Assembly (NCBI RefSeq): GCF_003122325.1
Contig: NZ_QFBC01000013.1
Coordinates: 124,001 to 188,000 of the forward strand
From: Rhizobium album
Lineage (GTDB): Bacteria > Pseudomonadota > Alphaproteobacteria > Rhizobiales > Rhizobiaceae
Direction of reading: 5' to 3'
Length of the DNA stretch: 64,000 nucleotides
Numbering within the stretch: position 1 is the first letter of the stretch; the number at the start of each line of letters is the position of its first letter. Positions 40,167 to 61,912 of the stretch are shown piece by piece. The position numbers were made by a program, and so were the translations under genes. A model generated the notes under the pieces. The model was not told the DNA's origin, searched no databases, and was given only the letters and a program-made list of their open reading frames with translations.

Positions 40167-40191
40167 AACTAAGCTAGGAGATGAGAGTTCC
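40167..40191 (-). promoter_or_regulatory. EcfG-type stress promoter P1
   Basis: On the minus strand GGAAC (40191-40187), 17 bases, GTT (40169-40167). It overlaps the 3' end of the upstream gene and points at the 63-residue gene. This is the consensus for the alphaproteobacterial general stress sigma factor. Confidence 0.7.
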
Positions 40192-40707
40192 AGGATTTCT
40201 ACGTAAACCGAACACCGATGCACGCGTTATTGCGTCAACAATGGTTTTTCCGGTCCTCGGATCTCGATCGGTGGTCCTGAGCTGCAAGCCTCTTGCACCC
40301 ACTTTTTTGATCGTCGGTTGGGCGGATTTATCGCCGTTGATAACCCTGATCCACGTGATGGCAAGATTGACAGAGTTGCCGTCGCGCGCGCCAGAGAGCG
40401 AAGAGGGGCGTCCAGATGGACCGATGTAGGTCCCAGTGTAACGGCCGGCCTTGTTACGCAATGTCGCGCTTATCGTCCGGCGGACGACCACGAATCCCCG
40501 ACATGATCCACTCATTGACAGAGCCCCACTTGTCGACGTTGTCTTGAATTTACAGGAAACCTGAAGTGGTTTTGCGCCGATTTTAGTAGTCGCTGATCCG
40601 CTACCAGACCACGTTCCTGACAGCGACTTTAGGAACGCGCTATCATCGGCCAACGTTGGCTGCGCCAGCAATGTTGTCGCAAATGCAGCAATAACAGCGA
40701 GCTTCAT
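40174..40707 (-). CDS. Secreted hypothetical protein, 177 aa
   Basis: Starts at ATG 40707; a signal peptide (LAVIAAFATTLLAQPTLA) covers about 20 residues. The mature part is rich in Ser/Thr/Gly (FLKSLSGTWSGSGSATT, SCKFKTTSTSGALSMSGSC) with two cysteines that could pair, predicting a small beta-barrel periplasmic protein. The C-terminus is basic. Resembles rhizobial periplasmic proteins of unknown role. Confidence 0.8.
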   Translation of the reverse strand: MKLAVIAAFATTLLAQPTLADDSAFLKSLSGTWSGSGSATTKIGAKPLQVSCKFKTTSTSGALSMSGSCRGFVVVRRTISATLRNKAGRYTGTYIGPSGRPSSLSGARDGNSVNLAITWIRVINGDKSAQPTIKKVGARGLQLRTTDRDPRTGKTIVDAITRASVFGLRRNPGTLIS

Positions 40708-40805
40708 CGAGAATCCTCTTTGGACGTTAGAAGACTTGCCCCTGAGAGAGCTTGCTTTGCAATGGTGAGGCACAAGTTCGCGATTCTAAGTCTCAGGTGT
40801 GCGAG

Positions 40806-41051
40806 TCAGCCCCTATATCGTCCTTCGTTAATATTCTTCGGATCGTAGTTCACTGACCACTCTTTTTCCGGCCCTTTCTGGCCCGGCGGTATCTTCTTGG
40901 CCGTGGCATCATCCGAGCCGGTGATAACCGTAGGCTTGGCACTTGCTACGCCATCATGGGTTTCGCCCTTTAGAGGTTTCGCAAACTGTCCTTTCGCATC
41001 ATCGCGGATTTGCTGCTTGGCGCTTTGCCTTTCTGAGCGAGCAACCATCAC
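40806..41051 (-). CDS. Small hydrophilic hypothetical protein, 81 aa
   Basis: Starts at ATG 41051, overlapping the previous stop. Basic N-terminus (MMVARSERQSAKQQIRDDAK) and low-complexity Pro/Gly/Lys tail (KKIPPGQKGPEKEWSVNYD). No domain is recognised. It is translated with the 67-residue gene behind stress promoter P2. Confidence 0.68.
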   Translation of the reverse strand: MMVARSERQSAKQQIRDDAKGQFAKPLKGETHDGVASAKPTVITGSDDATAKKIPPGQKGPEKEWSVNYDPKNINEGRYRG

Positions 41052-41251
41052 GCGTCACCTTTTGTCTTAAGGGCGTCGGTAAGATTTCGTTTCCGTGGAT
41101 CCTTGAGATTTTCGCCTGCTGCATCGCGGTCATGATCCGGATCATCTTTTGCAGGAAGGTAGCCGCGCGGCATGTTTTCTTGTGGACCTTCCCAACGTGG
41201 AGACTGGTCGGTTGTGCCCGGGACTCCGTCCCTTGGATTAATAATACCCAT
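41048..41251 (-). CDS. Small hydrophilic hypothetical protein, 67 aa
   Basis: Starts at ATG 41251, behind GAAGGAGAAGTAGT. Charged, Pro/Asp-rich and probably disordered (PAKDDPDHDRDAAGENLKD). An EcfG-type promoter lies 31-55 bases upstream. The stop overlaps the next gene. No family is recognised. Confidence 0.7.
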   Translation of the reverse strand: MGIINPRDGVPGTTDQSPRWEGPQENMPRGYLPAKDDPDHDRDAAGENLKDPRKRNLTDALKTKGDA

Positions 41252-41281
41252 ACTACTTCTCCTTCGTTTGCCAGATCACCT

Positions 41282-41306
41282 AACAGTATCGACGGGTAAT
41301 GGTTCC
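41282..41306 (-). promoter_or_regulatory. EcfG-type stress promoter P2
   Basis: Minus strand GGAAC (41306-41302), 17 bases, GTT (41284-41282), 31 bases before the 67-residue gene. Confidence 0.75.
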
Positions 41307-41336
41307 AAGGTCGGATGCCTCTTCACCCTGCGAGAG

Positions 41337-42137
41337 TTACTGCTTCGCAGTACCGGGCTCCGACATTTTGCGATGTTGCTTTGCCAACGTTTCGGCCGGC
41401 GTTACGTTTGCGACTGCCGCCATCAACTTGTTCTTCCATCCGGAAACAACGTCGCCTTCACCGTTCATCATGGCTTCGTAGCCGACTCTTGCCACGAAAG
41501 CCGGATCGTCCTTCTTTCCCTGACCGACGGCTGTATCCAGCATGTCGGCCCGCTCGAAGAATTCCGTATCTGTCGCGCCCGGCATTAGACATGTTACTGA
41601 TACGCCTGTGTCCTTCAACTCTTCTCGAAGGGCGAAGGAGAAAGAATTGATGAAGGCTTTTGTGGCGTTGTAAACGGCTTGAAACGTGCCCGGCATGAAA
41701 CCGGCGATGGATCCAGTGAACAGAATGCGTCCTTGGCCGCGGCTGCGCATACGGTTGCCGACCACATGGACCAGCGCAATGGTTCCGCTGATATTGGTAT
41801 CTACGACGCGTTGAGCTCCCTGCAAATCCTGGTCAAGGAAGTCGTCACCTAGACCTCTGCCAGCATTGGCCAGCAAGATATCTACTGTCCTGTCAAGTGC
41901 TTCAATGCCATTGACCAGGCGTCGAACGCCGTCCTCGGTGGCAAGATCCACCTGCATCGCCTCCACCCGCGTGCCAAACTCTTTCAGTCGTTGGGCCGCT
42001 TCTTTAATCTCCACCTCATCGGCGGCGATGATCAAATCGTAGCCGTCTTGTGCTGCGCATTTGGCCAACTCATAACCTATGCCGCTGGATGCGCCGGTAA
42101 TAACAGCCAGGCCTTTTCCGGTTTCGACAGGGTTCAT
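41337..42137 (-). CDS. SDR family oxidoreductase
   Basis: 266 residues from ATG 42137. NAD(P)-binding TGASSGIGYELAK near residue 16, NAGRG near 90 and catalytic YNATKAFINSF near 160 are intact. The sequence type (LxAANAGRGLGDDF, MPGATDTEFFERADMLDT) is that of broad-specificity SDRs. It follows the zinc alcohol dehydrogenase by 11 bases, so the two are co-transcribed from stress promoter P3. Function in aldehyde or ketone detoxification is inferred. Confidence 0.88.
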   Translation of the reverse strand: MNPVETGKGLAVITGASSGIGYELAKCAAQDGYDLIIAADEVEIKEAAQRLKEFGTRVEAMQVDLATEDGVRRLVNGIEALDRTVDILLANAGRGLGDDFLDQDLQGAQRVVDTNISGTIALVHVVGNRMRSRGQGRILFTGSIAGFMPGTFQAVYNATKAFINSFSFALREELKDTGVSVTCLMPGATDTEFFERADMLDTAVGQGKKDDPAFVARVGYEAMMNGEGDVVSGWKNKLMAAVANVTPAETLAKQHRKMSEPGTAKQ

Positions 42138-42148
42138 GCCAGTCTCCT

Positions 42149-43318
42149 TTACGGTTTCATGACGACCTTCACGCAGCCGTCCTGCTTGTCACGGAATGTT
42201 TTGTAGAGTTCCGGCCCGTCTTCGAGACTCGCCCGGTGGGTGATGACAAAGGATGGATCGATGTCGCCGTTCTGGACGCGATCCATCAAAAGAGGCAAAT
42301 ATTTCTGCACCGGCGTTTGCGCCATGCGCAAGGTCAGCCCACGATTGATTGCGGACCCCATCGGTATCTTGTCCAGAAAGCCACCATAGACACCGACAAT
42401 GGAAACCGTTCCAAAATTGCGGCAGCAATGGATGGCTTGGCGAAGCACGTGCGGTCTGTCTGTGCCCATGAAGGTTGCGACTTTTATCCGGTCGATACGG
42501 GAATCCCAGCTCGCCGCTGCGTCGGCTTCCGTACCGACTGCATCAATGCATGCGTCGGCGCCGCGCCCCTGCGTCAAATCCAAAATGCGCTCATAGATAT
42601 CTTCCTCCATGAAATCGAGGGTCTGCGCGCCAGCCGCCTCTGCGAGCGCCAGGCGCTCCGGTACGGTGTCAATTGCGATGACCCGCTCAGCTCCAAGCAG
42701 GAAGGCCGAACGAATGGCCATCTGCCCCACAGGCCCGCAGCCCCAGATGGCTACGGTTTCACCTGGCTGAATATTGCAGAAATCCGCAGCCATGTATCCG
42801 GTAGGAAAAATATCGGAGAGAAACAAAACCTGCTCATCCGAAAGGCCATCTGGAACCTTGATTGGGCCAACATCAGCAAAGGGGACTCGCAGATACTCCG
42901 CCTGACCGCCGCTGTAACCGCCGAGGAGGTGTGTATAGCCGAACAGGCCTGCGGGCGAATTGCCCCACATTTTTTTAACTTTTGAAGGATCGGGATTGGA
43001 ACGCTCACACCCGGAATAGAAGCCCCGCGTACAGAAAAAGCATTCGCCACAGGCAATCGTGAAAGGCACGACAACCCGATCCCCAACCTTGAGCTTTTTG
43101 TTGTCTTTTCCGACTTCGACGACTTCGCCCATAGTTTCATGGCCCATGATGTCGCCGCTATGCATATCCGGCATTACGCCGTTGAAGAGATGGAGATCAG
43201 AGCCGCAGATTGCGCAGGCAGTCACCTTGATGATTGCGTCCCGTCCATCCTCGATCTGCGGATCGGGTACACTTTCACAGCGAATGTCATGTTTTCCGTG
43301 CCAGGTCAGAGCTTTCAC
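42149..43318 (-). CDS. Zinc-dependent alcohol dehydrogenase (formaldehyde-dehydrogenase-like)
   Basis: 389 residues from ATG 43318. The catalytic zinc ligands sit in [13 protein letters not shown] and [12 protein letters not shown], and the four structural zinc cysteines in [15 protein letters not shown]. The cofactor motif is [14 protein letters not shown]. The longer middle part ([18 protein letters not shown]) is typical of the glutathione-independent formaldehyde dehydrogenase-like group widespread in rhizobia. It lies behind an EcfG-type promoter and precedes an SDR gene. Confidence 0.9.
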
Positions 43319-43392: not shown

Positions 43393-43417
43393 AACAAGCG
43401 GGCGGTCACAATGTTCC
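43393..43417 (-). promoter_or_regulatory. EcfG-type stress promoter P3
   Basis: Minus strand GGAAC (43417-43413), 17 bases, GTT (43395-43393), 75 bases upstream of the alcohol dehydrogenase gene. Confidence 0.75.
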
Positions 43418-43462: not shown

Positions 43463-43487
43463 GGAACCATGTGCGTGACGGCTTGTT
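43463..43487 (+). promoter_or_regulatory. EcfG-type stress promoter P4
   Basis: Plus strand GGAAC (43463-43467), 17 bases, GTT (43485-43487), 30 bases before the small gene at 43517. It is divergent from P3, 45 bases away. Confidence 0.75.
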
Positions 43488-43516
43488 ATCGGAGGGAATA
43501 ATTCAGGAGATTGCAA

Positions 43517-43705
43517 ATGGCGAAGCCTACCGCGGACTACGAGCTGGACCACAACTCGACCGCCCATCCGGCGGACGAAAAAGCGACCCCTCAACTTGAG
43601 CCACCGATTAAGGAATCAAGTGAGCACACCCGCAAAAGTCATAAAGACCCGGATTTGCAGCCAATCCATCACTCGTCGAAGCGCGGAAAGCGGGTCAATA
43701 CGTAA
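43517..43705 (+). CDS. Small hydrophilic hypothetical protein, 62 aa
   Basis: ATG 43517 follows AGGAGA. The protein is highly charged (MAKPTADYELDHNSTAHPAD, then KSHKDPDLQPIHHSSKRGKR), predicted disordered. No known domain. It is the first gene behind promoter P4. Confidence 0.68.
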   Translation: MAKPTADYELDHNSTAHPADEKATPQLEPPIKESSEHTRKSHKDPDLQPIHHSSKRGKRVNT

Positions 43706-43728
43706 CCGTTCAACAGGAGGATCTAGTC

Positions 43729-44288: not shown

Positions 44289-44489
44289 TCATTCAGGGTC
44301 GTTGGGCGCCACTATATTGCTCTCAAGCTGATTGAGGGCGGTGGCTAGCCGCTGGTAGGCTTCTTTCGTAAGGTCATGGGCTTCGGTTGAGTCGTTAGCC
44401 ATCTGCTTTTGGACCGCTTTGTGCAAGATATCACGAATATCCCAAAGGAGCTTTTCGAAAGCAGGGCTGCAGGCGAGTTGGTTGGGCAA
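44289..44489 (-). CDS. Small helical hypothetical protein, 66 aa
   Basis: Starts at ATG 44489. Predicted all-helical (FEKLLWDIRDILHKAVQKQM, LTKEAYQRLATALNQLESNI). It precedes the membrane-protein gene by 6 bases. No family is recognised. Confidence 0.62.
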   Translation of the reverse strand: MPNQLACSPAFEKLLWDIRDILHKAVQKQMANDSTEAHDLTKEAYQRLATALNQLESNIVAPNDPE

Positions 44490-44575: not shown

Positions 44576-44686
44576 TCATGGGGTGAAAAAAACGACATAG
44601 ATGCCGACCACTACCGCCGCTACCGCCAAGATGATTGCGACGAACGTGGCCATCCCGACCCGAGCTTTTCTTTCAGTGCTGCGCAT
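44576..44686 (-). CDS. Possible small membrane peptide, 36 aa
   Basis: From ATG 44686: a basic start (MRSTERKARVGMATFV) and one membrane segment (AIILAVAAVVVGIYVVFF). It lies in the decayed 3' end of the NRAMP remnant and has no clear ribosome site, so it may be fortuitous. Confidence 0.3.
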   Translation of the reverse strand: MRSTERKARVGMATFVAIILAVAAVVVGIYVVFFTP

Positions 44687-45168
44687 ACTGATCGAACACG
44701 GCTGGCGATTGAAAGTTCCAGACTGAACTTGACGCCCGCTTCGCCAATCGTGATCGGCAGACTGGGGATGCCGGTCGCCAATTCGACAGAGGCGCCCATT
44801 GCCGCCAAATTGGCGCCGATATTGATGCAGTTGGCGATGAACAGCAGACGGACTAGGAGGACGACCAGCGGCTTTGTCCAGATTGCGCCCATATTGACGG
44901 CAAGCCCGCATCCGGTCACCCGGCCGATCCTCGCGCTGGCAAACTGGATCACGGACATCAAGGGATAGGTCAGCAGCATCGTCCAGAGCATGTTGAAGCC
45001 GAATTAGGCTCCTGCCTGGGAATAGGTCGCGATACCGCTCGGGTCGTCTTCGGCGGCTCCGGTGATGAGACCAGGGCCAAGTTGCTTCAGAACCGAACCG
45101 GATGTCGGGCGCGGGGTCGGACGCTCAGAGGTGCGTGGCGAAAGTGAACCATCGAAAGGGGCGCTCAT
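44620..45168 (-). pseudogene. NRAMP-family divalent metal transporter remnant
   Basis: From ATG 45168 the frame reads LKQLGPGLITGAAEDDPSGI, then ATYSQAGA and a TAA stop (45004-45006). It resumes in the same frame with FGFNMLWTMLLTYPLMSVIQ and INIGANLAAMGASVELATG, matching the first three helices of NRAMP transporters, including the DPSG metal-binding motif. After that the similarity is lost and the remaining ~300 residues are missing. The gene is inactivated by a nonsense codon and C-terminal truncation. Confidence 0.8.
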
Positions 45169-45181
45169 GGGATAGTTCCGG

Positions 45182-45551
45182 CTAACGGGTTGCGCCAAGG
45201 ATCCATGTGACAGCCGCCGTGATCGCTACGACGGCAAGCAGATTTTCCCTGATCCAGCCGCGCGCCGCTTCACGAATGTTGCCACCGCCGGGATTGATGT
45301 TCGGTAGCCCTCGCCTTGACGCGATCGGCCTCTTCGACGTCGGCTCTCCCTGCCGGCACGGAGGTAAGACGAACGACTTCAGTCTCGACATCGTGCTTCT
45401 TGAATTCTTCGGTAATGAGCTCGAGCAGTTTACCCGTCGACGACACTTCGGATGACGACGAGGACTTCAGGGTGCTGTTCCCAAAAGTCCAGACGGCGGT
45501 GGCAATTGCCACTAGGGCCAGGTTTGAAAGCAGGTCGTTCCAAGGGCTCAT
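45182..45551 (-). pseudogene. Overlapping small frames: probable flavodoxin-type reductase remnant plus membrane tail
   Basis: The frame from ATG 45551 contains a hydrophobic start and then SSEVSSTGKLLELITEEFKK and HDVETEVVRL, resembling the N-terminus of flavodoxin-like NAD(P)H oxidoreductases, but the rest is lost. Another frame ends with AARGWIRENLLAVVAITAAV and ILGATR, like the C-terminal membrane anchor of DUF883/DUF3618-type small proteins. Neither is a complete gene. The region looks decayed. Confidence 0.4.
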
Positions 45552-45712
45552 TCATTCCTCACGCTTGACTATGACGTAAGCCTAATGAACCCGTGTAAAA
45601 TTTGACTGAAGATATCGTGGGGTTTGGACAGTCAGAAGCCTGCGGCCGCCTTTCATGATTACATAACGAAATTCTAAGATGATGCTTCGACAGTTTGGAG
45701 GCATGTAAGTTG

Positions 45713-47914
45713 ATGCGCATTGAACGTGCGGAGGGGTCAAGCGGCGCTTCCGGAAATGGCATACAGGATTCCGCGATCGATCCCTTGCGTCGTGTCGCTA
45801 CAACCTCGCGGACGAACGAGGACCTGGCCGAGCGTTACGTTTGGCTGGAGGCCATGATCAACCACGTCCCCGACTACATATATGCGAAGGATCGCGAGGG
45901 GCGCTTCATCTTCGCGAACGCTGCAGTAGTCACAAACAACGGGTTCGAACACTTCGACGAGATGATCGGCCTGAAAGATTCAGATCTTCACGGTTGGGAA
46001 GCGGCCACCGAGATCCATGAAATCGAGCGGCGGGTCATGAACTCTGGCGAGGCCGATCTTGGCTTTGAAGAGCGTGCCCTCAAGGGAAATTGCGACCGAT
46101 GGCTCATGATGTCGAGGGTGCCCTTACGCAACCGGGATGGTGAGATCGTTGGTGTCGTAGGCGCATCGCGCGACATTACTGCGCGTAAGGCTGCTGAAAG
46201 AATGCTTAAGTCGCAAACATGCATTCTGCAGGCAATTGTATCTGGCAAGCCAGTAGGCGAGTTCTTCCAAGAGCTTTGTGAGCAGCTAGAGACGGGGTCG
46301 CCGGGTTCTCGTGCTGCAATCCTCACGATGGCGACAACTGAAGAATGGAGGATTGCGGCCTGCCCGGCATCTTCCGCACTACCTACTTCAATCAGCCAAG
46401 GACCGCACGGTACACTCGTGGACGTCCTTCGAGGGGTCATCGGCGATAAGGGGGCGTTCAGATGCATCGACATCATCGGCGGTAGCGGAGACATATTAGG
46501 CTGCCTTCTCGTGTGGTACCCGGAAGATCAGCTCACATCGGAATACCTCGAATTTTTCGAGGCGGCGGCGCGCATGGCCGGAATAGCGATCGATCGAAGT
46601 CGTGACGAAGAGAAGATCCTTTACTTGGCCGAACACGATGCACTTACCGGGCTTCCGAACAGAGACAGGCTCGAACGGAGTCTCGATCGTATGGTAGCTC
46701 AGGCGGATATCGAAGGAGGGACACTCGGGGTTGCGTTTCTGGATCTGGACAACTTCAAGCATGTGAACGACAGCCTCGGACATAGGGTCGGCGATCTACT
46801 ACTGAGTGAAACTGCCGTCAGGATCAAACGGGCTCTCGGAGCTGATGGAATAGTGGGGCGGATCGGCGGGGATGAATTTGTCATCGTCCTCGAGGGGGAC
46901 GAGTCCTATGAGGCCCGGATGGAGCGTGTCCGTGCCGCGATATGCCTGCCGTTCACGGTGGACGGCGTCGAGCTTCAGACTGCATGTAGCATCGGTATTG
47001 CCGCCTTCCCGGATCATGGTCATTCCTCTGCCGAACTCATGGCGGCTGCCGATCTTGCGATGTATCGTGTGAAGCGGGAAGGACGCGACGGGGTCCGAAA
47101 GTTCACCAAATGTATGTCGGTTGCTGCGCGCGAGAAGGTGCGCATGACGAAGGAGCTGCGCACCGCAATCGAAAACGACGAACTGGTTGTGCACTACCAG
47201 CCACAGAAGGATCTGAGGACGGGCAAGGTATGCGGGGTCGAGGCACTGGTACGCTGGCAACACGAGGGCCGTCTTGTGATGCCAGGCGAGTTCATCCCGC
47301 TGGCAGAAGAAACCGGGCTTATTTGCGCTCTCGGAGAGTTCGTCATGACCAAGGCATGCGCTCAGGTTCGTGCCTGGCAGGCCGCTGGAGTTGAACCATT
47401 CAAGGTTGGGGTCAATATGTCGGCACGGCAGTTTCAGGATCCTGGGATGACCCGCAAGGTAGCCGACATTCTTAGTGCGGCGGACTTGGATCCGCGGTGG
47501 CTGGAAGTCGAAATAACCGAAAGCATGATCATGTGCGACGTGGCAGACTCCGTCCGGAAGATGTCGGAATTGACCGCGTTGGGGATCAGCCTTGCGCTGG
47601 ATGACTTCGGCACGGGATATTCAAGCTTGAGCACTCTAAAGTCCTTTCCGCTTTCGCGCCTCAAGATCGACAGTTCTTTCGTGAAAGGCATTCCTGCAGA
47701 CGAAAACGACATGGCGATCGCTTCCGCCATCCTGTCAATGGCGAAGAAGCTAGGTATACAGACCATGGCAGAGGGTGTTGAGAATGCCGAGCAGGAGCAT
47801 TTCCTCAGGGATGCCGGTTGCTGTCAGATGCAAGGGTACTATTTGGCTAGACCATTACCGCCGTCTGAACTCCGCGAATTTGTGACAAATTATCAAGAGC
47901 TACCATATCTGTGA
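45713..47914 (+). CDS. PAS-GGDEF-EAL cyclic-di-GMP signalling protein
   Basis: 733 residues from ATG 45713; the GGAGG at 45697 supports this start or TTG 45710. A PAS domain covers about 40-165 (MINHVPDYIYAKDREGRFIF), then a GAF-like region (to ~300). The GGDEF domain has RIGGDEFVIVL near residue 384. The EAL domain has VEALVRW near 510 and DDFGTGYSSLSTLKSFPLSR near 625. Both catalytic motifs are intact, so synthesis and breakdown of cyclic di-GMP are possible. No membrane segment is seen; the PAS domain likely senses a cytoplasmic signal. Confidence 0.93.
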   Translation: MRIERAEGSSGASGNGIQDSAIDPLRRVATTSRTNEDLAERYVWLEAMINHVPDYIYAKDREGRFIFANAAVVTNNGFEHFDEMIGLKDSDLHGWEAATEIHEIERRVMNSGEADLGFEERALKGNCDRWLMMSRVPLRNRDGEIVGVVGASRDITARKAAERMLKSQTCILQAIVSGKPVGEFFQELCEQLETGSPGSRAAILTMATTEEWRIAACPASSALPTSISQGPHGTLVDVLRGVIGDKGAFRCIDIIGGSGDILGCLLVWYPEDQLTSEYLEFFEAAARMAGIAIDRSRDEEKILYLAEHDALTGLPNRDRLERSLDRMVAQADIEGGTLGVAFLDLDNFKHVNDSLGHRVGDLLLSETAVRIKRALGADGIVGRIGGDEFVIVLEGDESYEARMERVRAAICLPFTVDGVELQTACSIGIAAFPDHGHSSAELMAAADLAMYRVKREGRDGVRKFTKCMSVAAREKVRMTKELRTAIENDELVVHYQPQKDLRTGKVCGVEALVRWQHEGRLVMPGEFIPLAEETGLICALGEFVMTKACAQVRAWQAAGVEPFKVGVNMSARQFQDPGMTRKVADILSAADLDPRWLEVEITESMIMCDVADSVRKMSELTALGISLALDDFGTGYSSLSTLKSFPLSRLKIDSSFVKGIPADENDMAIASAILSMAKKLGIQTMAEGVENAEQEHFLRDAGCCQMQGYYLARPLPPSELREFVTNYQELPYL

Positions 47915-48959: not shown

Positions 48960-49293
48960 CCTATAAAGTAAATGGGCGCCTGGTTGCCCAGACGCCCGCC
49001 CACCGAACGGAGCAACAACCAAGGAGCGGCGGGTTGAACTTGGACGGTCTGCCCGGATAATTTGAGCCGCACCAGTTGCGGTTCCACTATCGACAACGCC
49101 TGATCTTGAATCGAAGTTTTTTAGACCGGTTGTCGACACTAACGTTTTTCGAACGCCAATCAGCATCTCGTGCAATCCGTAACAACAAACAGTGCGACCG
49201 GTTCCGAGAACCCACGAATTTTCGCCGACCGCAAAGCATGTATCGCTATATGAACTGCTAAAGTCTTGTGTCCCAACGCCGATCGGCCGCAAA
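48960..49293. other. Intergenic region, nothing recognised
   Basis: No convincing reading frame in either direction. It ends at the stress promoter P5. Confidence 0.4.
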
Positions 49294-49318
49294 GGAACCT
49301 CTCTTTGCCAGGAAAGTT
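49294..49318 (+). promoter_or_regulatory. EcfG-type stress promoter P5
   Basis: Plus strand GGAAC (49294-49298), 17 bases, GTT (49316-49318), 24 bases before the gene at 49342. Confidence 0.75.
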
Positions 49319-49341: not shown

Positions 49342-49527
49342 ATGTCAGATGAAGATCCTTATCGCCATATTTCCCAGACGTCCGAGACGCAGCGGGAGGC
49401 CTACCTCCGGCGCTCATCGCTGCATTTCCTTGAATGTGCCATTCACCTATGCGCATCCCACATGAGCCTTGAGGATGTGGCGCAAATCCTGGAAGCGGAG
49501 GCGCGGATGCTAAGAGAGCACGGATGA
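49342..49527 (+). CDS. Small helical protein, 61 aa
   Basis: ATG 49342 follows GGAGGTAAAAAC. The protein reads MSDEDPYRHISQTSETQREA, then LHFLECAIHLCASHMSLEDV, and is probably two helices with two cysteines. No family is recognised. It stands alone behind stress promoter P5. Confidence 0.72.
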   Translation: MSDEDPYRHISQTSETQREAYLRRSSLHFLECAIHLCASHMSLEDVAQILEAEARMLREHG

Positions 49528-49823
49528 AATCGCTCCTCTCGGCAGCGAGGGTGCCCGTCGGCCTGCCTGCTTTTGGTATAAGGCTAACTTCGACCGGGAG
49601 TTTAAGCGCATTACATCAAATTTGACCCATATTAAAGTGCCGGGCGCTGTCGGTGGTAGCCTGATATGAAAAAGTTGCGTTGAGAAATGAGGCTGGACTT
49701 GGTGACCGGCATGTTGGTCGTTTGAGACATGCTTGAAACCGAATAGCTTCCTGTGAATATTTGCAACCAAACCTAAATGAAGTGACAGGCAACAAGCGGC
49801 TCACCGCGGCCATAGGGTGGGGA

Positions 49824-52077: not shown

Positions 52078-52977
52078 TTAGCTGCGCTGGCTCTGAGACT
52101 GCCCAAATTGAGACTGACCCTGGCTCAGGCCGCGTTTATCTTCGACTTCGACCTCGGTATGGCGTACGGTTTCGTTGATTTCTTCAGTTCGTTCGGCTTC
52201 GGTTTTCTTGATGCCGATTTCTTCAACGACCCGGGCTTCCTTCGACACCACGGCTTCCTCGTGATGCTCCTCGGCAGAAATCGTCCGTTCTTCGAAAGCA
52301 CGGTCCGCGTCGGTAAGCAGCCGGTCGACATTTCGTCTCTCAATGGTGACATTTTCGTCACGGAGTGTGAGGCTTTCATTTACGGGACTTTCCACAGTGT
52401 AGGCCCTGACCTTGACGCTGCCGGCATTTACATCCCTTTTGCCAACGCGCAGATTTTCCTCCACGACCGGGATCGTTTCCTCGTTGCCGCCGGTCTGGTT
52501 GCGGAGCGCCGCCTGCGTGGCGATATCAATTCGGTCAGACCCTGTCGTGGCCGAGCTCGAATAGGAGCCATTCCATCCCTCCGTCCGCCAGGTATCGGCA
52601 CGCTCGTCAAGGTTGATGCTGCCTTCATCGTCGAGAATGTCCCGGACAGTCTCGTAGGAGCCGTCATCGACACCACTGACGGTGACAAGGAAGCCGCCGC
52701 GGCGCAGGCCTTCGCTGTAAACCTCTCGATCGTCATCGGGAAAGAAGAAGTCTTCCAGCGCCGCCCAGAACCCTGTCCGGCTTTCCGGCGGAGGTGCATC
52801 TGTACGATCGGCTTCATAGCCGGGGACCAGGCGCAAGTTGGCTTGCGCGATGCCAGCGTCGCGAAGGCGGGCAATGGCAGCCTCCGCCTCGGAGCGATTG
52901 TCGAAAAATGCGGTCAGCGTCGAGGCTGCGTTACCGGAGACATAGCTGGATGTCGTATCGCTATAGGTCTGTGTCAT
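52078..52977 (-). CDS. DUF2382 (YsnF/AvaK-like) stress protein, 299 aa
   Basis: From ATG 52977. Residues ~20-130 resemble the general-stress-protein 17M-type fold (TAFFDNRSEAEAAIARLRDA, GGFLVTVSGVDDGSYE). The C-terminal ~165-280 is a DUF2382 domain (TIPVVEENLRVGKRDVNAGS, then VRAYTVESPVNESLTLRDE, VTIERRNVDR). A Gln/Ser-rich tail follows. The start overlaps the end of the next gene upstream by 17 bases. Such proteins accumulate under stress or desiccation; the molecular function is unknown. Confidence 0.88.
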   Translation of the reverse strand: MTQTYSDTTSSYVSGNAASTLTAFFDNRSEAEAAIARLRDAGIAQANLRLVPGYEADRTDAPPPESRTGFWAALEDFFFPDDDREVYSEGLRRGGFLVTVSGVDDGSYETVRDILDDEGSINLDERADTWRTEGWNGSYSSSATTGSDRIDIATQAALRNQTGGNEETIPVVEENLRVGKRDVNAGSVKVRAYTVESPVNESLTLRDENVTIERRNVDRLLTDADRAFEERTISAEEHHEEAVVSKEARVVEEIGIKKTEAERTEEINETVRHTEVEVEDKRGLSQGQSQFGQSQSQRS

Positions 52978-53362
52978 GGGTGTGCTCCTTGCTGTTGGGG
53001 TAAATGCGCTCAACCACAAACTTTTGTTTGCGAAGGCTGATCGGGACGCGCTCATGCTGAACCGTGATCTCACGCTTGATCCGTATTTCTTCAACGAGGA
53101 CCAGCCGCTTTTCGACGATGACGCGTTCCTCGCAGATGGGTACAATAGTGGTATCTCCCTCGGTCCGAATCTGGGGGAATTCATCCACTTCGAGGCCGAT
53201 CGGTATACGTTCAATGCTCGCCGTCACCTGTTTGAGATCCTGCTCGACAGTCTCGTGGTCCAACTCTGTTTTCGTGCGAACTTTGACTTGTCCGTCGCTG
53301 ACACGGCGTTTGGCCACTTCAAGCTGTTCTTCAACACGTTGAATTTTGTCCGTTCGCGTCAC
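52961..53362 (-). CDS. DUF2382 (YsnF/AvaK-like) protein, 133 aa
   Basis: From ATG 53362. TTIVPICEERVIVEKRLVLV, then REITVQHERVPISLRKQKF, marks a single DUF2382 domain; the N-terminus (DKIQRVEEQLEVAKRRVSDG) adds another half-repeat. It overlaps the longer DUF2382 gene and lies 30 bases after stress promoter P6. The pair forms a co-translated stress operon. Confidence 0.87.
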   Translation of the reverse strand: MTRTDKIQRVEEQLEVAKRRVSDGQVKVRTKTELDHETVEQDLKQVTASIERIPIGLEVDEFPQIRTEGDTTIVPICEERVIVEKRLVLVEEIRIKREITVQHERVPISLRKQKFVVERIYPNSKEHTHDTDL

Positions 53363-53391: not shown

Positions 53392-53417
53392 AACGAAAAG
53401 ACCGAGAAAATGGTTCC
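53392..53417 (-). promoter_or_regulatory. EcfG-type stress promoter P6
   Basis: Minus strand GGAAC (53417-53413), 18 bases, GTT (53394-53392). The spacing is one longer than the others but within the known range, because the base before GTT is C. Confidence 0.65.
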
Positions 53418-53604: not shown

Positions 53605-55356
53605 ATGCGAATTGTCCCGACTGAGGATGACCTCTCACCGGTAGGTCAAGCCCAAGTTCCGATCGGTTCGGATGGTGGGGCCAGACGGGGAAAAGGACGC
53701 GTGAGAAAAAGACTGATGGCAGTGGCAGCCACTGCCCTTTTGCCGGCCATCGGGCTTTTGGCCTATAACGAATTTGCAAGTCGCGAACGGCGTTCGGCTG
53801 AGATCCATAGTGAAGCTGCAGCAGCGGCCCGCATGACCGCTTCGGAAGTCGAGCGCATTCTTGAGGGATCGCGTAGCCTGCTGATTGCGGTATCGGCGCT
53901 TCCCGCAGTTGTTGAAATGGACGCAAAGGCCTGCGGCGAAGCCCTGAGTCGCGTCGCCACTCGGCTCACTACCACAGGAGCCATCCTATTGATCGACACT
54001 AACGGCAAGCTGGTCTGTGACAGCCAGGGCAACGGCTCCGGTACGGATTTCTCGGATCGTTCCTACGTCGAGGACGGCCTTGCCGCCAAAGACCTTGTTG
54101 TTGGCGGATATACGGTCAGCAAGTTGACGGGCGTTCCCGTCCTTCCTGTCGCACTGTCGGTATACAACGATGACAAGCTCGTGGGCGTCATCGCAACCGG
54201 CATCCGCCTTGATTGGCTGCAGGCGCGGATCATTGAGCGCGGCGTTGCACGCGGTGGGGCGGTGACGATTGCCGACCATAACGGCGTTATATTGGCTCGG
54301 AATCCTTACCCCGAGCGCTTTGTCGGCACGCGCATACCCGATCCATACCAGCATCTGATAACCTCCGATGAGCCTGGAACCGTGGAAGTCAAAAGTCAGG
54401 ATGGCACCGAGCGGATCCTGGGCTACATTCCAACATCGGCAACCAACCAGCTTTACGTCAGCGCCGGGTTCTCACAGCAGGAAGCCTTTGCCGAGGTCAA
54501 CCGCCTGACCTTCACTGCCGTCATTATGTTGAGCTTGGGGGCTGTGTTGGCCTTCGTCGCAGCGACCCTTGTCGGAAGCCGGTTCATTCTGAAGCCGATA
54601 GCTCATATTGTCGATGTCATGGAGAAATGGCGTCAAGGCGATACAGCGGTCAGAACCAACATGGCCGGGAAATTCGGAGAACTCGGCCTTGTCGGCGGAT
54701 CCGTTGATACCCTTCTCGACGAGCTCGAGCGACGCCGGCTTGTTCTGGAAGCAGCCGAAGAACGACGAAGCCTGCTCGCTCGGGAACTGACCCATCGTGT
54801 CAAAAATACCCTGGCGCTTGTCAGCGCGATCGCCCGGCAGACGTTTAAGAGCTACCCGCTGCAGGTCAACTCGTTCATTCAACGCCTTGCCTCTTTAGGA
54901 AGCGCCTATGACCTGCTCTTTGCCGCTGAACACCAAAGTGCTGATATCAGGGCGATTGTCGAGCGCACCCTTCGGCCCCATCTGCCAGTCGTTGCTGACC
55001 GCGTAACGATCAACGGGCCGGAATGCCGGGTCGATCCCGATATCGCCCTGGCGCTTTCTCTGGTTATCCACGAGCTGTCAACGAATGCTGTCAAATACGG
55101 AGCCCTCCGGGATGAGCAGGGGTTGATATCGATCAACTGGAGCTGTGACACACGACGTGTGAGCCTTTTATGGCGTGAACACGACGGTCCCCCTGTGCTT
55201 GCCCCTGAGAAGGAGGGCTTTGGCTCGCGGCTTATCCGCCGGGCATTTCCGGCGGCAGCCAACGCGGAGGTCATTGCTGCGTATCTTCCAGACGGACTTC
55301 AGTTGACATTGGCATTTGATCTCCAATGCGCGGATGTCGGCATAGAAACCGGCTAA
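53605..55356 (+). CDS. Membrane sensor histidine kinase, Cache-HAMP-HWE/HisKA_2 type
   Basis: 583 residues from ATG 53605; GTG 53701 is an alternative. Membrane segments lie at about 36-52 and 298-322, enclosing a ~240-residue periplasmic Cache-like domain (ILLIDTNGKLVCDSQ, DRSYVEDGL). A HAMP linker follows. The kinase core has ARELTHRVKNTLALVSAIAR (H-box) near 392 and ELSTNAVKYGAL (N-box) near 490. This histidine kinase class includes the kinases feeding the PhyR/EcfG stress pathway. No response regulator is adjacent. Confidence 0.9.
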   Translation: MRIVPTEDDLSPVGQAQVPIGSDGGARRGKGRVRKRLMAVAATALLPAIGLLAYNEFASRERRSAEIHSEAAAAARMTASEVERILEGSRSLLIAVSALPAVVEMDAKACGEALSRVATRLTTTGAILLIDTNGKLVCDSQGNGSGTDFSDRSYVEDGLAAKDLVVGGYTVSKLTGVPVLPVALSVYNDDKLVGVIATGIRLDWLQARIIERGVARGGAVTIADHNGVILARNPYPERFVGTRIPDPYQHLITSDEPGTVEVKSQDGTERILGYIPTSATNQLYVSAGFSQQEAFAEVNRLTFTAVIMLSLGAVLAFVAATLVGSRFILKPIAHIVDVMEKWRQGDTAVRTNMAGKFGELGLVGGSVDTLLDELERRRLVLEAAEERRSLLARELTHRVKNTLALVSAIARQTFKSYPLQVNSFIQRLASLGSAYDLLFAAEHQSADIRAIVERTLRPHLPVVADRVTINGPECRVDPDIALALSLVIHELSTNAVKYGALRDEQGLISINWSCDTRRVSLLWREHDGPPVLAPEKEGFGSRLIRRAFPAAANAEVIAAYLPDGLQLTLAFDLQCADVGIETG

Positions 55357-56375
55357 GCTCCTTCACTGGAATGACAAAGCATGCGCGGGAAGACGACGGT
55401 GATGACCAACCCTTCAGGGCGCCATTCCCGCATAATGGTCGCACCTAAGCTGGTTTTAAGGGTACTTTCGAGCTTGCTGCCGAAGCCACGCGACAGGGAG
55501 GGTGATCGGACGGGCGGGCCGCCCCGCTCAATCCACACGGTTTGATAGCCGTTCGTCAGTGGCCGGGTGCTGATCTCGATGAAACCTTCTTCGGTCTGTA
55601 ATGCGCCGTACTTGGCTGCGTTGGTGGTAAATTCGTGAAACAAGAGCGCCAGGCTCGTCACATGCGGTGCAGCGAACTCAATGTCGTCTCCAGTGATTGT
55701 AAGACGGGATCTGCCAGTTTTGTGCGGCGCAACCATCGCCTCCAGCAGCGAGAAGAGAGAAACTCTATCGGCAGTCGCGGGATCGGCCTCATGGCTTCTC
55801 AGGGTGAGATCGTGAGCCCGGGCCAAAGCCACCAGACGCTCACGCATCAACTTAACCAGGTCACCTGGAGTTTCTGCTTCGCGGGCCGCAAGGGACAGTA
55901 GTCCACCAGTAAGTGCAAACAGGTTTTTGATCCGATGATTCATCTCGTGGAGGAGCAAGGATTGTTGCTCTTGTCCACGCCGCCGCTCAGAGATGTCACG
56001 CGCAATCTTGGAAGCCCCTACGATAATTCCGCCCGGAGTCCGGATGGGCGAAATCGTGAGGGAGATATCGATAAGTTGACCGTCTTTGCGGCGACGAACG
56101 GTCTCGAAATGATCGACGCGCTCGCCAGACTGGATGCGGGCGAGGATTGCCGGCTCTTCATCCAGACGCTCCGGCGGTATTAATATGGTAATGGGCTGGC
56201 CAATCACCTCGGTCGCAGAGTAGCCGAAAATCCGCTCAGCGCCGCGGTTCCAACTGGTGATAATCCCCTCAAGACTTTTGCTGACGATGGCGTCGTCGGA
56301 AGATTCAACGATGGCCGCGAGGAGGGAAGAGGGTTCGTATGCAAATGTGTTCGGCTGGTCTTTTGAATTCGTCAT
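55353..56375 (-). CDS. PAS-HWE/HisKA_2 sensor histidine kinase
   Basis: 340 residues from ATG 56375. A PAS domain with PAC covers about 15-135 (IITSWNRGAERIFGYSATEV). The kinase core has LLHEMNHRIKNLFALTGGL (H-box) near 145 and FHEFTTNAAKYGALQTEEG (N-box) near 250. It is soluble and convergent with the membrane kinase, with 3'-ends overlapping by 4 bases. Its output partner is not in the window. Confidence 0.9.
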   Translation of the reverse strand: MTNSKDQPNTFAYEPSSLLAAIVESSDDAIVSKSLEGIITSWNRGAERIFGYSATEVIGQPITILIPPERLDEEPAILARIQSGERVDHFETVRRRKDGQLIDISLTISPIRTPGGIIVGASKIARDISERRRGQEQQSLLLHEMNHRIKNLFALTGGLLSLAAREAETPGDLVKLMRERLVALARAHDLTLRSHEADPATADRVSLFSLLEAMVAPHKTGRSRLTITGDDIEFAAPHVTSLALLFHEFTTNAAKYGALQTEEGFIEISTRPLTNGYQTVWIERGGPPVRSPSLSRGFGSKLESTLKTSLGATIMREWRPEGLVITVVFPRMLCHSSEGA

Positions 56376-56991: not shown

Positions 56992-57016
56992 GGAACCGTT
57001 TGCCGCAAACGACGTT
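56992..57016 (+). promoter_or_regulatory. EcfG-type stress promoter P7
   Basis: Plus strand GGAAC (56992-56996), 17 bases, GTT (57014-57016). It is followed by a 146-base leader before the gene at 57163. Confidence 0.7.
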
Positions 57017-57036
57017 TTGAGGGCGATGCAAGTCGT

Positions 57037-57115
57037 GTCAAGCGGACACGATGGCATGGAGAACACAGGGATTTTTCCGCTTTCTTCCTGTGGCCAACGA
57101 AACGGCAGGCGAGCT
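57037..57115 (+). other. Conserved leader segment, copy 1
   Basis: It contains GTCAAGCGGACAC (57037-57049) and a 28-base block at 57088-57115 with TGGCCAACG. Both blocks recur in order in the leader at 61937-62002, also downstream of an EcfG-type promoter. The leader does not encode a recognisable peptide. Confidence 0.5.
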
Positions 57116-57162
57116 CCTATCCCATCCGGCTTGCGTCACCATCTTTTCCATTGGGGGCATGA

Positions 57163-57417
57163 ATGACGAACGACATCATTTTTGCAAAGCGGAGACTGCG
57201 CGGACCTCAATACTCGCTTGAGGAATTCGCAGAAGCCTACAATCTTCCTGAACCTGAAGCGACCCGCCTCTTTAAGCTCTCCGGTCCCAGCCGGGTCGAT
57301 CTCGATATGCTCATGCGCGTGAAGGCGCTGAAAGCGGCGTCGCCGAGCCAACCAGTGTTCCAACGCCTGGATTGGGTTGAAGCCCTGGGCCCTACTGCGT
57401 CAGCCGGGGCTGATTAA
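57163..57417 (+). CDS. Small hypothetical protein, 84 aa
   Basis: From ATG 57163, with GGGGGC in front. YSLEEFAEAYNLPEPEATRL, then LDMLMRVKALKAASPSQPVF, suggests a small helical, HTH-like protein. No family is named with confidence. Its end overlaps the 3'-end of the convergent vWA gene by 26 bases. Confidence 0.6.
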   Translation: MTNDIIFAKRRLRGPQYSLEEFAEAYNLPEPEATRLFKLSGPSRVDLDMLMRVKALKAASPSQPVFQRLDWVEALGPTASAGAD

Positions 57418-59347: not shown

Positions 59348-59528
59348 CCCACAAAATGCGGCCATAGTAGAAGAGTCATTGCCACTGGCGCTAGTCTGAC
59401 ACACGAAAGTGCCAACCTGCATGACCTATGCTCCACTTCAAGCCTATGCTGCTTGATCGCGCCGTTGCTGCCATTTCTGACGGTATGCGGTGTTTACGGC
59501 GGCGGGCGGCCCGCTTGAGAGCGTAGTC
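59348..59528. other. Intergenic region
   Basis: No gene recognised. The sequence separates the XRE gene from a minus-strand small frame. Confidence 0.35.
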
Positions 59529-59687
59529 TTACTTCTCGTCATTTCTTTCTGATTCTTTGGCCATGATAAGAACTTTTTCCCGCAGCAGTTTTCGATCGTG
59601 CTCCCGCGCAAAAGCTTTGAGATGAGTCAGGGCGTCGATACAAGTGGCCGGCTCCTGAGCGCGCTCGCTCTGATTTTTCCTATCTAT
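59529..59687 (-). CDS. Possible small protein with ATA start, 52 aa
   Basis: An open frame on the minus strand begins with ATA 59687, 5 bases after a strong GAGGAGG site, and ends at TAA 59529. The product is charged and helical (CIDALTHLKAFAREHDRKLL, then REKVLIMAKESERNDEK). No ATG, GTG or TTG is placed at the ribosome site. ATA starts are rare, so the call is tentative. It is 35 bases downstream of the DUF892 gene and could be in its operon. Confidence 0.4.
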   Translation of the reverse strand: MDRKNQSERAQEPATCIDALTHLKAFAREHDRKLLREKVLIMAKESERNDEK

Positions 59688-59722
59688 GGCACCCTCCTCA
59701 TCTCTTCACCGCACATATTCAG

Positions 59723-60286
59723 TCATCGCACGTCCATAGCAGACAAACAGAATTGATGACGGCGGCGGTCTGCGATCTCAAGCAGCTTTGGTCTTTCCCT
59801 TAGTGCCTTTGCTGTTGGCGGAAGCTTCGGCAAGTCCGTCAACGCTTCGTCGGTAGCGGATTCCTCCTGCAGCGTGGCGTCCAGAAGCTGCGCAGCTTCG
59901 TTCAGGCCCAACCGGCCGGCCCATGCCTTGAGAGTGCCGTAGCGGGTGATTTCATAATGCTCGACGGGCTGAGCCGAAGAAATCAGGCCAGCGTCAAAGG
60001 CTTCCGAACCCTTGTATTCTTCCATGATTTCCTCGCCTTCCGCCAGAATTCCGACGATGGCGTCGCAGGTCTTGCCACGCGCAGGCTTACCGAGCAGTTC
60101 AAATACCTGCTGCAGACGCTCGATCTGACCTTCGGTTTCTTCCTTGTGCTTCTGGAAGGCGGCTTTCAGATCCGCGGACTGGGTCGCCCGCGCCATCTTC
60201 GGCAAGGCTTTGACGATCTGGCGTTCCGCGTAGTAAATGTCCTTGAGGGTATCCAGGAACAGGTCCTGCAGGGTCTTCTCGGCCAT
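59723..60286 (-). CDS. DUF892 (YciE/YciF) ferritin-like protein with frameshifted C-terminus
   Basis: 187 residues from ATG 60286. LQDLFLDTLKDIYYAERQIV, then KALPKMARA and later EHYEITRYGTLKAWAGRLG, carry the Glu/His metal ligands of the ferritin-like DUF892 fold. After DEALTDL the frame gives PKLPPTAKALRERPK, but a one-base shift gives AEASANSKGTKGKTKAA then stop, the usual basic tail. Thus a base is missing near 59834, altering only the last ~30 residues. Stress-induced proteins of this family are widespread; metal storage is not proven. Confidence 0.85.
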   Translation of the reverse strand: MAEKTLQDLFLDTLKDIYYAERQIVKALPKMARATQSADLKAAFQKHKEETEGQIERLQQVFELLGKPARGKTCDAIVGILAEGEEIMEEYKGSEAFDAGLISSAQPVEHYEITRYGTLKAWAGRLGLNEAAQLLDATLQEESATDEALTDLPKLPPTAKALRERPKLLEIADRRRHQFCLSAMDVR

Positions 60287-60336
60287 TTTAGACTCCTATG
60301 GCTGGGGTTGAGAGGTAGAAGATGACAAAACCCGGG

Positions 60337-61215
60337 TTAGGCGATGTCATCCAATTCAATGCCGTGCTTGGTGCCGACCGCACCGCCGATCCACGCTGCG
60401 GCCGCTCCCACAGCCAGCGAGATGAAGGCGATGATCGCGGCAATCGAGATGACAGATGTTGCCGTATCTGCTGCCTGAACCGCAGTTTGCTTGGCGCTTT
60501 CCACAGCCTGGCGATATTGCGCTTCATACAGCTGAACCTGACTGCGGGCCTGCTCGACAGGAATGTTCTGTGCGCGAGCCAACGCTTCGGCTGCCTGCGT
60601 GCGTGCATTATCAGCCTGGGCCGGATCGCCGGTCATCACGCCGCGAACCGCAGCAACAGCGGCATTTCGGAGCGACTCCGGATCGCTTCCGCTTGTCTCG
60701 CGAACCTGCTGCTCAATGGAAGCCATGGGATCGGTCGCCGTAGCGATGGATGGTGCAGCTGCCGTCGCAACGGTGGCCGCAGTCTGACCTGCGCCCGCTA
60801 CCAAGCCCGAAAGACCGCTGTAGACGCCGCCAACGAGAGCGCCTACCGAAGTACCGAGCAGGTAAAGAAGAAAAAGGGTGGTGACAGCCCAGGACGTAAG
60901 CCCATGCAGTGCACCGGTGGACGTAGACGGGCGACCTGAAAGACGGCTGGCAATGTAACCGCCTGCGAATGAAGCGATAATACCGGTCAGAATGAACCAA
61001 ATCGCGCTGCCGATTGAAAACGTGCTCGCGTCCGGATTGTCGTTGGTCATAGGATCAAGGACTGCCGCACCAATGCCGATACCCAGTAAATTCAACAGAA
61101 AATGCGCTGTGAGCGCGATAACAGCGCCGGCAAGGACGGCGCCCCAGGAGATTTTGTGAAATGCCGCGGTTGACGGCTGCTCAAGTGGAACCGGGGTTAC
61201 GGAAACGGTGCTCAT
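60337..61215 (-). CDS. Multi-pass membrane protein (PhnA-like/rhizobial stress type), 292 aa
   Basis: From ATG 61215. Membrane segments lie at about 22-45, 65-90, 105-130, a hydrophobic Ala/Gly part at 130-150 and a C-terminal segment at 250-280 (AAIIAFISLAVGAAAAWIGG). The region between 155 and 245 is helical and Ala/Gln-rich (QARSQVQLYEAQYRQAVESA). Similar proteins in rhizobia are often annotated PhnA-like; the role is unknown. It lies behind stress promoter P8 and 50 bases before the DUF892 gene, likely one operon. Confidence 0.82.
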   Translation of the reverse strand: MSTVSVTPVPLEQPSTAAFHKISWGAVLAGAVIALTAHFLLNLLGIGIGAAVLDPMTNDNPDASTFSIGSAIWFILTGIIASFAGGYIASRLSGRPSTSTGALHGLTSWAVTTLFLLYLLGTSVGALVGGVYSGLSGLVAGAGQTAATVATAAAPSIATATDPMASIEQQVRETSGSDPESLRNAAVAAVRGVMTGDPAQADNARTQAAEALARAQNIPVEQARSQVQLYEAQYRQAVESAKQTAVQAADTATSVISIAAIIAFISLAVGAAAAWIGGAVGTKHGIELDDIA

Positions 61216-61262
61216 CGGGGAAATCCTATGCATGCAGCTCACAAGATTGTGATGCCCACTAG

Positions 61263-61287
61263 AACCTCGCTGCCCGGGTTCAGTTCC
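61263..61287 (-). promoter_or_regulatory. EcfG-type stress promoter P8
   Basis: Minus strand GGAAC (61287-61283), 17 bases, GTT (61265-61263), 48 bases before the membrane-protein gene. Confidence 0.75.
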
Positions 61288-61408
61288 GCTGACTGCCCCG
61301 CAAACTCACCGCAGGCAGCTGTCTTTTAACGAATCCAGCGATACCTTGATAAAGGCTGTTTCAGTTATATCTTACAGCCTATAGCCCGGCGGCGGACCGA
61401 CCGGCTTA

Positions 61409-61437
61409 GGGCCGTCGCTGACGAGGAGCGGCGGCCC
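61409..61437. repeat. GC-rich stem-loop
   Basis: GGGCCGTCGCT (61409-61419) pairs with AGCGGCGGCCC (61427-61437) with one mismatch, 7-base loop. It lies upstream of the small gene at 61505, between divergent units. Confidence 0.5.
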
Positions 61438-61504
61438 TACCGACAATGTCTCTATCCCGATTAACTCAGCCTGCGAAAATTCGCTTCGCGCCCAGGGAGG
61501 TTGT

Positions 61505-61699
61505 ATGCTTTTCAATCTTCTTTCTTATAGGGACAAGGAAATCGACAGTATCCTTCAGGCCGCGATTGAAACGTGCAACCGGCTCGATATTGACCTCAAG
61601 AGCGAAGATGGCCACAGAGTCTTGCAACGCGCGACCAATATAGCTGCCGGCGGCGTCATGGACGCCGATGAGATCGTCGCAAGGCTCTGTGCCAGTTAG
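61505..61699 (+). CDS. Small helical protein, 64 aa
   Basis: ATG 61505 follows AGGGAGGTTGT. YRDKEIDSILQAAIETCNRL, then GHRVLQRATNIAAGGVMDAD, is predicted helical. No family is recognised. Confidence 0.68.
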   Translation: MLFNLLSYRDKEIDSILQAAIETCNRLDIDLKSEDGHRVLQRATNIAAGGVMDADEIVARLCAS

Positions 61700-61887
61700 C
61701 GCTCCGCGCTCACCATGGAAATTCCGCCGAAACCGCCGTCTCGACCGAGATTTGTCGCAGGGGTAGCCGTCCGTGCAAGCCCGGCTGCGGCGCCTGGCGG
61801 TTACAGGGCATTGCGCCGCCGTCATGAGCCCCTGCCTGACGTGATCCGCGACGGCGGCTCCGGCGGAATTCCCAGCTCATCAGTGCA

Positions 61888-61912
61888 GGAACATTTTCAA
61901 GGGTTTAAGGTT
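61888..61912 (+). promoter_or_regulatory. EcfG-type stress promoter P9
   Basis: Plus strand GGAAC (61888-61892), 17 bases, GTT (61910-61912). A 134-base leader separates it from the DUF6894 gene. Confidence 0.72.

Follow-up and report, generated by a model that had tools for sequence, protein, structure and literature searches.

EcfG-type promoters in the final 24 kb of the window

The stretch of Rhizobium album DNA considered here, hereafter the window, is 64,000 nucleotides long (C5:124001-188000, in a 6.86-Mb genome of 62 contigs). Its final part carries genes for small hydrophilic proteins, a Zn alcohol dehydrogenase (Zn-ADH) paired with a short-chain dehydrogenase/reductase (SDR), DUF2382 proteins, a 301-aa membrane protein with a DUF892 protein, two HWE histidine kinases and two structured RNAs, and among them lie repeated copies of a motif resembling the promoters of EcfG (RpoE2), the sigma factor of the general stress response (GSR). 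An earlier note on this DNA had listed nine such sites, and all nine are present at the positions and on the strands given in Table 1; eight have the form GGAAC-N17-GTT (N17), and the site at 53392-53417 has the same boxes with 18 bases between them (N18). The sites were said to lie immediately upstream of genes, which holds for seven of them, where the motif ends 20-74 nt before the start codon, but not for those at 56992 and 61888, where the protein start is 146 and 134 nt away, respectively, and a structured RNA lies in between.

In total the window holds ten N17 matches, every one of them within 40167-61912, and the first 40 kb have none. In 300 dinucleotide shuffles of bases 40001-64000, N17 occurred 0.72 times on average and never more than 5 times, and if spacings of 16 to 18 are pooled over the whole window, 15 matches are found against a shuffle mean of 4.43 and a maximum of 10, a density above that of shuffled sequence. 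Two of the N17 matches, at 44695-44719 and 49181-49205 on the minus strand, were absent from the earlier list. The sites combine a GGAAC -35 box and a GTT -10 box at a fixed spacing, which is the same as that of the GGAAC-N16-CGTT motif described for EcfG1 of R. etli (PMC3892343), and the claimed match to the known EcfG consensus is thus borne out as far as the motif given in that report goes. The small hydrophilic open reading frames (ORFs) behind the sites were assigned to no Pfam or NCBIfam family.

The sites are clustered in the genome

N17 sites are concentrated in at least three clusters, C5:164-193 kb, C4:1-59 kb and C11:49-81 kb, the first of which includes the end of the window. The island proposed in the earlier note is well supported, but it is not a lone one. 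The three clusters (133,957 bases) hold 43 N17 matches at 40 places, because three palindromic sites count on both strands. None of the 35 other spacings tested (5 to 40) is as common in the same sequence, the mean being 3.6 and the maximum 10. In control stretches totaling 378,000 bases, N17 occurs 5 times against a mean of 8.5 for other spacings; this control leaves out the stretches L005, L014 and L015 (9 N17 matches in 60 kb), which had been chosen for their sites.

The view that the sites arose by chance or reflect no more than low GC content draws on a genome total close to that of a control pattern, and on composition: the GC content is 0.55-0.59 in the three clusters and 0.56 to 0.64 in the controls, mostly above 0.60. 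However, the excess is limited to a spacing of 17 within the very same low-GC sequence, the site before the gene for the 301-aa protein is retained in relatives (see below), and controls from C11 that are equally low in GC (0.56-0.58) are nearly free of N17, since L138 and L140 have none and the two matches in L141 are a single palindromic place. Composition is thus not the cause of the clustering, and a chance or low-GC origin, to which we assign almost no probability, is rejected on the strength of the spacing control together with the low-GC control stretches.

The stretch at the promoter at 41282 has a copy at C4:36209 (87% identical over 413 bases), which likewise lies behind an N17 site. 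A divergent pair of N17 sites at C4:36209-36621 recurs at C1:112852-113264, one site being identical and the other having a near-identical spacer, and the stretch therefore seems to be duplicated between these two contigs.

Conservation of the promoters and nature of their targets

Relatives of the 301-aa protein were collected at 70 loci, which were sorted by title as 40 from Rhizobiaceae, 27 from Methylobacteriaceae and 3 from others; six of the Rhizobiaceae loci are named only as 'Rhizobiales bacterium', and two organisms supply two loci each. In 32 of the 40 Rhizobiaceae loci, the 300 bases upstream of the homologue contain an N17 site; other spacings average 0.5 in these 40 loci. The wider neighborhoods contain 116 N17 matches against 19 at other spacings in Rhizobiaceae (n=40), and 13 against 9.7 in Methylobacteriaceae (n=27). 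Conservation of the site upstream of orthologues was found for the 301-aa gene only. For the other genes of the window, 81 relative loci were gathered via one protein; they provide mostly few homologues, most of them without a site, and are not used as support.

Of the genes behind the sites in C4 and C11, 18 were scanned for protein families. They include alpha-amylase, DUF4142, DUF72, DUF892, topoisomerase IB, DUF6894, DUF4174, DUF2383, pyridoxamine-oxidase-like, isochorismatase, NAD synthase and sorbosone dehydrogenase/PEBP proteins, and the membrane protein is encoded there once more; several genes have no family. An alpha-amylase-family gene, which we take to resemble a trehalose-synthesis enzyme, also runs off the contig at the end of C5 (L007:7165-7956), and a ROSE RNA thermometer (Rfam RF00435, 50.8 bits) lies inside the C4 cluster (L009:5961-6049). 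Several of the C4 and C11 target classes are also present in the EcfG list of S. melonis, whose entries include topoisomerase IB, general stress protein 26, YbhB-type PEBP, Zn-ADH and glycosidases (PMC6599016). The proposal that the sites give a coherent role to otherwise uncharacterized small genes is supported in its general sense, that of a stress regulon, but not for the sites at 56992 and 61888: both start structured RNAs, and a role for the ORFs that follow cannot simply be read from them.

The core switch lies elsewhere in the genome

EcfG, NepR and PhyR are all encoded by the genome, at a canonical locus on C12 that consists of ecfG, nepR, a divergent phyR and an HWE kinase gene; profile searches returned a single NepR (53 bits) and PhyR at 383 bits. 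At this locus, one N17 site is located 50 nt upstream of phyR, and another precedes a small ORF that lies some 1 kb away from ecfG. A third one, at C12:197525-197549 on the minus strand (L005:12525-12549), is found past the 3' end of the kinase gene, on the strand opposite to it. In R. etli, the EcfG-dependent RNA ReC64 is reported from the region past the core kinase gene (PMC3892343), and the C12:197525 site is probably, by this likeness of position, the start of a GsrN-like RNA; a search of the genome for the Atu_At1 RNA described below gave no match there. Profile and protein searches of the genome yielded no match to NepR, the PhyR sigma-like domain or a relative of the C12 EcfG within the three clusters.

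The GGAAC box is common to other extracytoplasmic function (ECF) sigma factor groups. It might therefore be argued that the sites are used not by the C12 EcfG but by another such factor, for instance an EcfG paralogue: the genome encodes EcfG relatives, the closest at C45:12197 (40% identical; the others 22-32%), an ECF gene at C34:384090 also matches the PhyR sigma-like profile (27.1 bits), and half of the completed alphaproteobacterial genomes are reported to have at least two EcfG-like factors (PMC3892343). This seems improbable, however, as the sites have a GTT -10 box at a fixed N17 spacing like that of R. etli EcfG1, and in R. etli the motif was noted at just 1 of 19 EcfG2-dependent units, in the data given by the same source (PMC3892343). 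Moreover, an N17 site precedes phyR itself, and no N17 match occurs in the 20 kb that surround the C34 gene.

A probable accessory general stress response island

Because the spacing is specific, the C12 locus carries N17 sites, the site is conserved in 32 of 40 loci and families known from EcfG regulons lie behind the sites, the reading of the sites as EcfG-type promoters is well supported at the level of sequence; binding of EcfG to them, and dependence of their transcription on EcfG, would follow from it. We interpret the final 24 kb of the window as an accessory GSR island that is transcribed by EcfG and plugged into the switch of the host, and we put the probability of this at roughly 0.87.

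Several observations weigh against this interpretation. The genome as a whole contains 255 N17 matches and 239 of the reversed pattern, so that the genome-wide scan proposed in the earlier note reveals clustering of the sites but no excess in total, and the limits of the clusters were set after the sites had been seen. No convincing target gene lies behind two of the ten N17 sites of the window, those absent from the earlier list, and the HWE kinase genes of the window are not themselves preceded by one. An N17 site precedes the 301-aa homologue in 0 of 27 Methylobacteriaceae loci (other spacings 0.12) and 0 of 3 others (other spacings 0), and 8 of the 40 Rhizobiaceae loci also lack it, two of which (L025 and L038) have N18. 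In relatives, N17 was found before 0 of 14 DUF892 genes, which in the window come second in the operon, and 0 of 11 PAS-HWE kinase genes. Finally, the full N17-GTT motif precedes only 43 of 104 copies of the Atu_At1 RNA, the others having CATT (15, the next commonest), GCTT and so on at the -10 position.

The island is likely to have been gained by transfer. The GC content of the two parts of C5 is 0.55 and 0.63, a shift consistent with an island. The start of the C5 cluster adjoins two pieces of an ISL3 transposase gene (37239-38557), with the drop in GC beginning earlier, at about 34.5 kb. The C4 cluster ends next to a resolvase gene (C4:57905), and another resolvase gene is located at L007:1498. 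No tRNA gene was found in the stretches scanned. In the two congeners searched, homologues of the 301-aa protein are only 36-37% identical, and a megablast search with 39000-63999 against 72,556 plasmids returned 6 records, the best with 8% coverage and thus no close copy. The right end of C5 and the left end of C4, both GC-poor and rich in sites, may be parts of one island, but no 15-mer is common to the terminal 150 bases of C5 and the initial 400 bases of C4.

Of the 14 HWE kinase matches in the genome, the C5 and C11 clusters account for 5, and C4:1-60 kb has none. HWE-like kinases were also found in 10 of the 40 Rhizobiaceae and 2 of the 27 Methylobacteriaceae neighborhoods of the 301-aa homologue, for which about 1.6 and 1.0 kinases, respectively, would be expected at the rate of the R. 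album genome, a comparison in which the two detection methods differ. The view that the island plugs into the host rests on these kinases in the C5 and C11 clusters and in the Rhizobiaceae neighborhoods, together with the lack of a core switch in the clusters; the island kinases would then signal to the PhyR of the host. As a separate observation, an HWE histidine kinase gene on a plasmid of Phyllobacterium zundukense (L219) starts about 0.7 kb after an Atu_At1 copy.

Table 1. Promoter motifs, RNAs and selected genes between 40 and 62 kb of the window
Feature	Position	Strand	Target or remark
EcfG-type promoter, N17	40167..40191	-	63-aa ORF 39919-40110, start codon 56 nt downstream
EcfG-type promoter, N17	41282..41306	-	small ORFs 41048-41251 (30 nt) and 40806-41051
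EcfG-type promoter, N17	43393..43417	-	Zn alcohol dehydrogenase 42149-43318 (74 nt) and SDR 41337-42137
EcfG-type promoter, N17	43463..43487	+	64-aa ORF 43511-43705 (23 nt)
Extra N17 match	44695..44719	-	within Nramp remnant; 205 nt to 66-aa ORF 44289-44489; may be chance
Extra N17 match	49181..49205	-	no convincing gene behind; may be chance
EcfG-type promoter, N17	49294..49318	+	61-aa ORF 49342-49527 (23 nt)
EcfG-type promoter, N18	53392..53417	-	two DUF2382 ORFs, 52961-53362 and 52078-53214
dCache-HWE histidine kinase	53605..55356	+	candidate PhyR input
PAS-HWE histidine kinase	55353..56375	-	tail to tail with dCache-HWE kinase
EcfG-type promoter, N17	56992..57016	+	starts Atu_At1 RNA, 9 bases from motif to RNA
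Atu_At1 structured RNA (Rfam RF02496)	57026..57132	+	105.2 bits, cut-off 60
EcfG-type promoter, N17	61263..61287	-	301-aa membrane protein 60337-61242 and DUF892 protein 59723-60286
EcfG-type promoter, N17	61888..61912	+	starts At1-like RNA ahead of DUF6894, 13 bases from motif to RNA
At1-like RNA	61926..62019	+	39.2 bits, below family cut-off 60
DUF6894 protein	62047..62292	+	start 27 nt past At1-like RNA

Some other features of the window may be mentioned. The remnant of an Nramp metal transporter gene spans 44620-45198 on the minus strand and contains the N17 match at 44695. About 115 nt downstream of the match at 49181 lies a weak match to the small RNA BjrC68 (48964-49065, minus strand; 25.3 bits, cut-off 39). 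At 49761-50977 on the plus strand, a GGDEF ORF overlaps a membrane-like ORF in another frame, and the two perhaps represent a frameshifted diguanylate cyclase gene; further cyclic di-GMP genes are located at 45695-47914 and 62444-63223.

The Atu_At1 RNA family

The RNA at 57026-57132 matches the Rfam Atu_At1 (At1) model over its full length (positions 1-108) and belongs to the family. The one at 61926-62019 lacks 14 model positions, which make up one side of the central hairpin, and because of its score below the cut-off it is named At1-like only. The genome contains five At1 matches, and the three outside the window also follow GGAAC sites (N17-GTT on C6 and C12, N17-ATT on C4). Within the family of the source genome, presumably the Rhizobiaceae of GTDB, 82 of 247 genomes have an At1 match, 75 of them one above the cut-off, and among 289 genomes drawn by class and searched with strict filters the R. 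album genome alone had a match. This family limit is not absolute, since a plasmid search lists one Mariluticola record.

In the family of the source genome, GGAAC ends 27-40 nt before the 5' end of At1 in 85 of 104 copies, compared with 84 of 4140 control windows farther upstream (2%); the 19 copies without it comprise 11 of the 91 that score above the cut-off and 8 of the 13 below. In a subset of 30 loci, GGAAC is present in 29 and N17-GTT in 16. On ten At1 plasmids, taken from the 25 matches listed out of 55, GGAAC lies 30-34 nt upstream in nine and CGTT is found in three; on one plasmid, from Pseudochrobactrum (L218), At1 is located amid otsB, CsbD and PRC-barrel genes. Atu_At1 thus appears, judging by what precedes it, to be an RNA family driven by EcfG across the Rhizobiaceae, and it may function in the stress response. 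In S. meliloti, RpoE2 motifs have been predicted before 23 small RNAs (PMC3616915). No paper on RF02496 or Atu_At1 was found in the literature searched, which covered open-licence papers.

An alignment of 32 copies (29 of the 30 best-scoring loci and three from R. album) was used to examine the fold. The pairing printed by Rfam plus one added helix gives 33 pairs, which are kept in 95.9% of cells, and 20 of them have changed on both sides. The added helix joins the loop of the 5' hairpin (columns 15-19) to that of the central hairpin (54-58), is paired in 99.4%, compared with 59% at most for slid versions, and is absent from the structure line printed by the Rfam search. Among the five pairs of this helix, changes on both sides are limited to 17-56, which is seen as CG, GC, AU and UA, and the case for the pseudoknot therefore depends chiefly on that pair. 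In the RNAalifold consensus, column 19 is paired with column 14, which competes with the end of the added helix. The window At1, folded alone, does not have an exceptional energy (z -1.03).

The question arises whether the RNAs at 57026 and 61926 are 5' leaders that control the downstream ORF instead of free small RNAs. ORFs begin 30 nt (57163-57417) and 27 nt past the two RNAs, a plausible ORF begins 27-51 nt past four of the five R. album copies (in the fifth, on C12, ORFs can be read downstream, but across a hairpin), DUF892, LigD-like or other stress genes occupy that place in some relatives, and the ends of At1 pair with each other, closing the fold. On the other hand, an ORF of at least 55 aa with a strict Shine-Dalgarno-like box follows 22 of 104 copies against 108 of 1000 random positions, a twofold difference only, a terminator-like hairpin lies within 90 nt downstream in 20 of 104 copies, and the Rfam class is that of a small RNA. 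In a looser test, 40 of 104 copies were followed by an ORF. A leader role for the two RNAs of the window is thus conceivable, although we lean towards free RNAs; because the strict test gave 22 of 104 against a background of 10.8%, such a role for At1 in general is only weakly indicated and was kept as an alternative. Free-RNA and leader forms of At1 probably both exist.

Working model and comparison with known regulons

Our model is that EcfG, made elsewhere together with NepR and PhyR from the C12 locus, would as part of RNA polymerase recognize GGAAC-N17-GTT in the island and transcribe the genes for the small hydrophilic proteins, the Zn-ADH/SDR pair, the DUF2382 proteins and the membrane protein/DUF892 pair, as well as two Atu_At1-type RNAs. 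The island would supply effectors and possibly, through its two HWE kinases, input to the PhyR of the host, and so would borrow the core switch of the host instead of bringing one. A broader proposal, to which we attach even odds, is that At1 is a pseudoknotted RNA family dedicated to the GSR in Rhizobiaceae and near kin, launched in most of its copies from EcfG promoters and used both as free RNA and as the leader of stress genes, and that the islands are regulon-extension modules that bring HWE kinases, effectors and At1 to the PhyR-NepR-EcfG switch of the host.

As far as the published portions compared go, the system resembles the EcfG/RpoE2 regulons of R. etli, S. meliloti and Sphingomonas in promoter sequence and spacing, in the core locus, and in targets such as topoisomerase IB, general stress protein 26, YbhB-type PEBP, Zn-ADH and glycosidases. 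It differs from those accounts in that the targets are packed into three low-GC stretches that carry roughly 0.3 sites per kb, with HWE kinases among them. No paper on EcfG islands was found by title in the literature searched, the scope of which took in few subscription papers. Like At1, GsrN of Caulobacter and the GsrN-like RNAs of Rhizobiaceae, including ReC64, are small RNAs from an EcfG promoter; in the accounts given in these sources they are usually near the core GSR locus, whereas At1 is multicopy and mostly located elsewhere (PMC5869019, PMC3892343). The Rfam search output describes RF02496 only as a Rhizobiales small RNA; the GGAAC box, the loop-loop pairing and the copies before ORFs are added by the present analysis.

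In summary, At1, just a 'sRNA' in Rfam output, obtains a probable regulon and a loop-loop pairing that can be tested, and dozens of small unnamed genes become predictable stress genes. Our results suggest that the general stress response can grow by gained DNA that carries both sensors and targets, and that such additions depend on the resident sigma switch.

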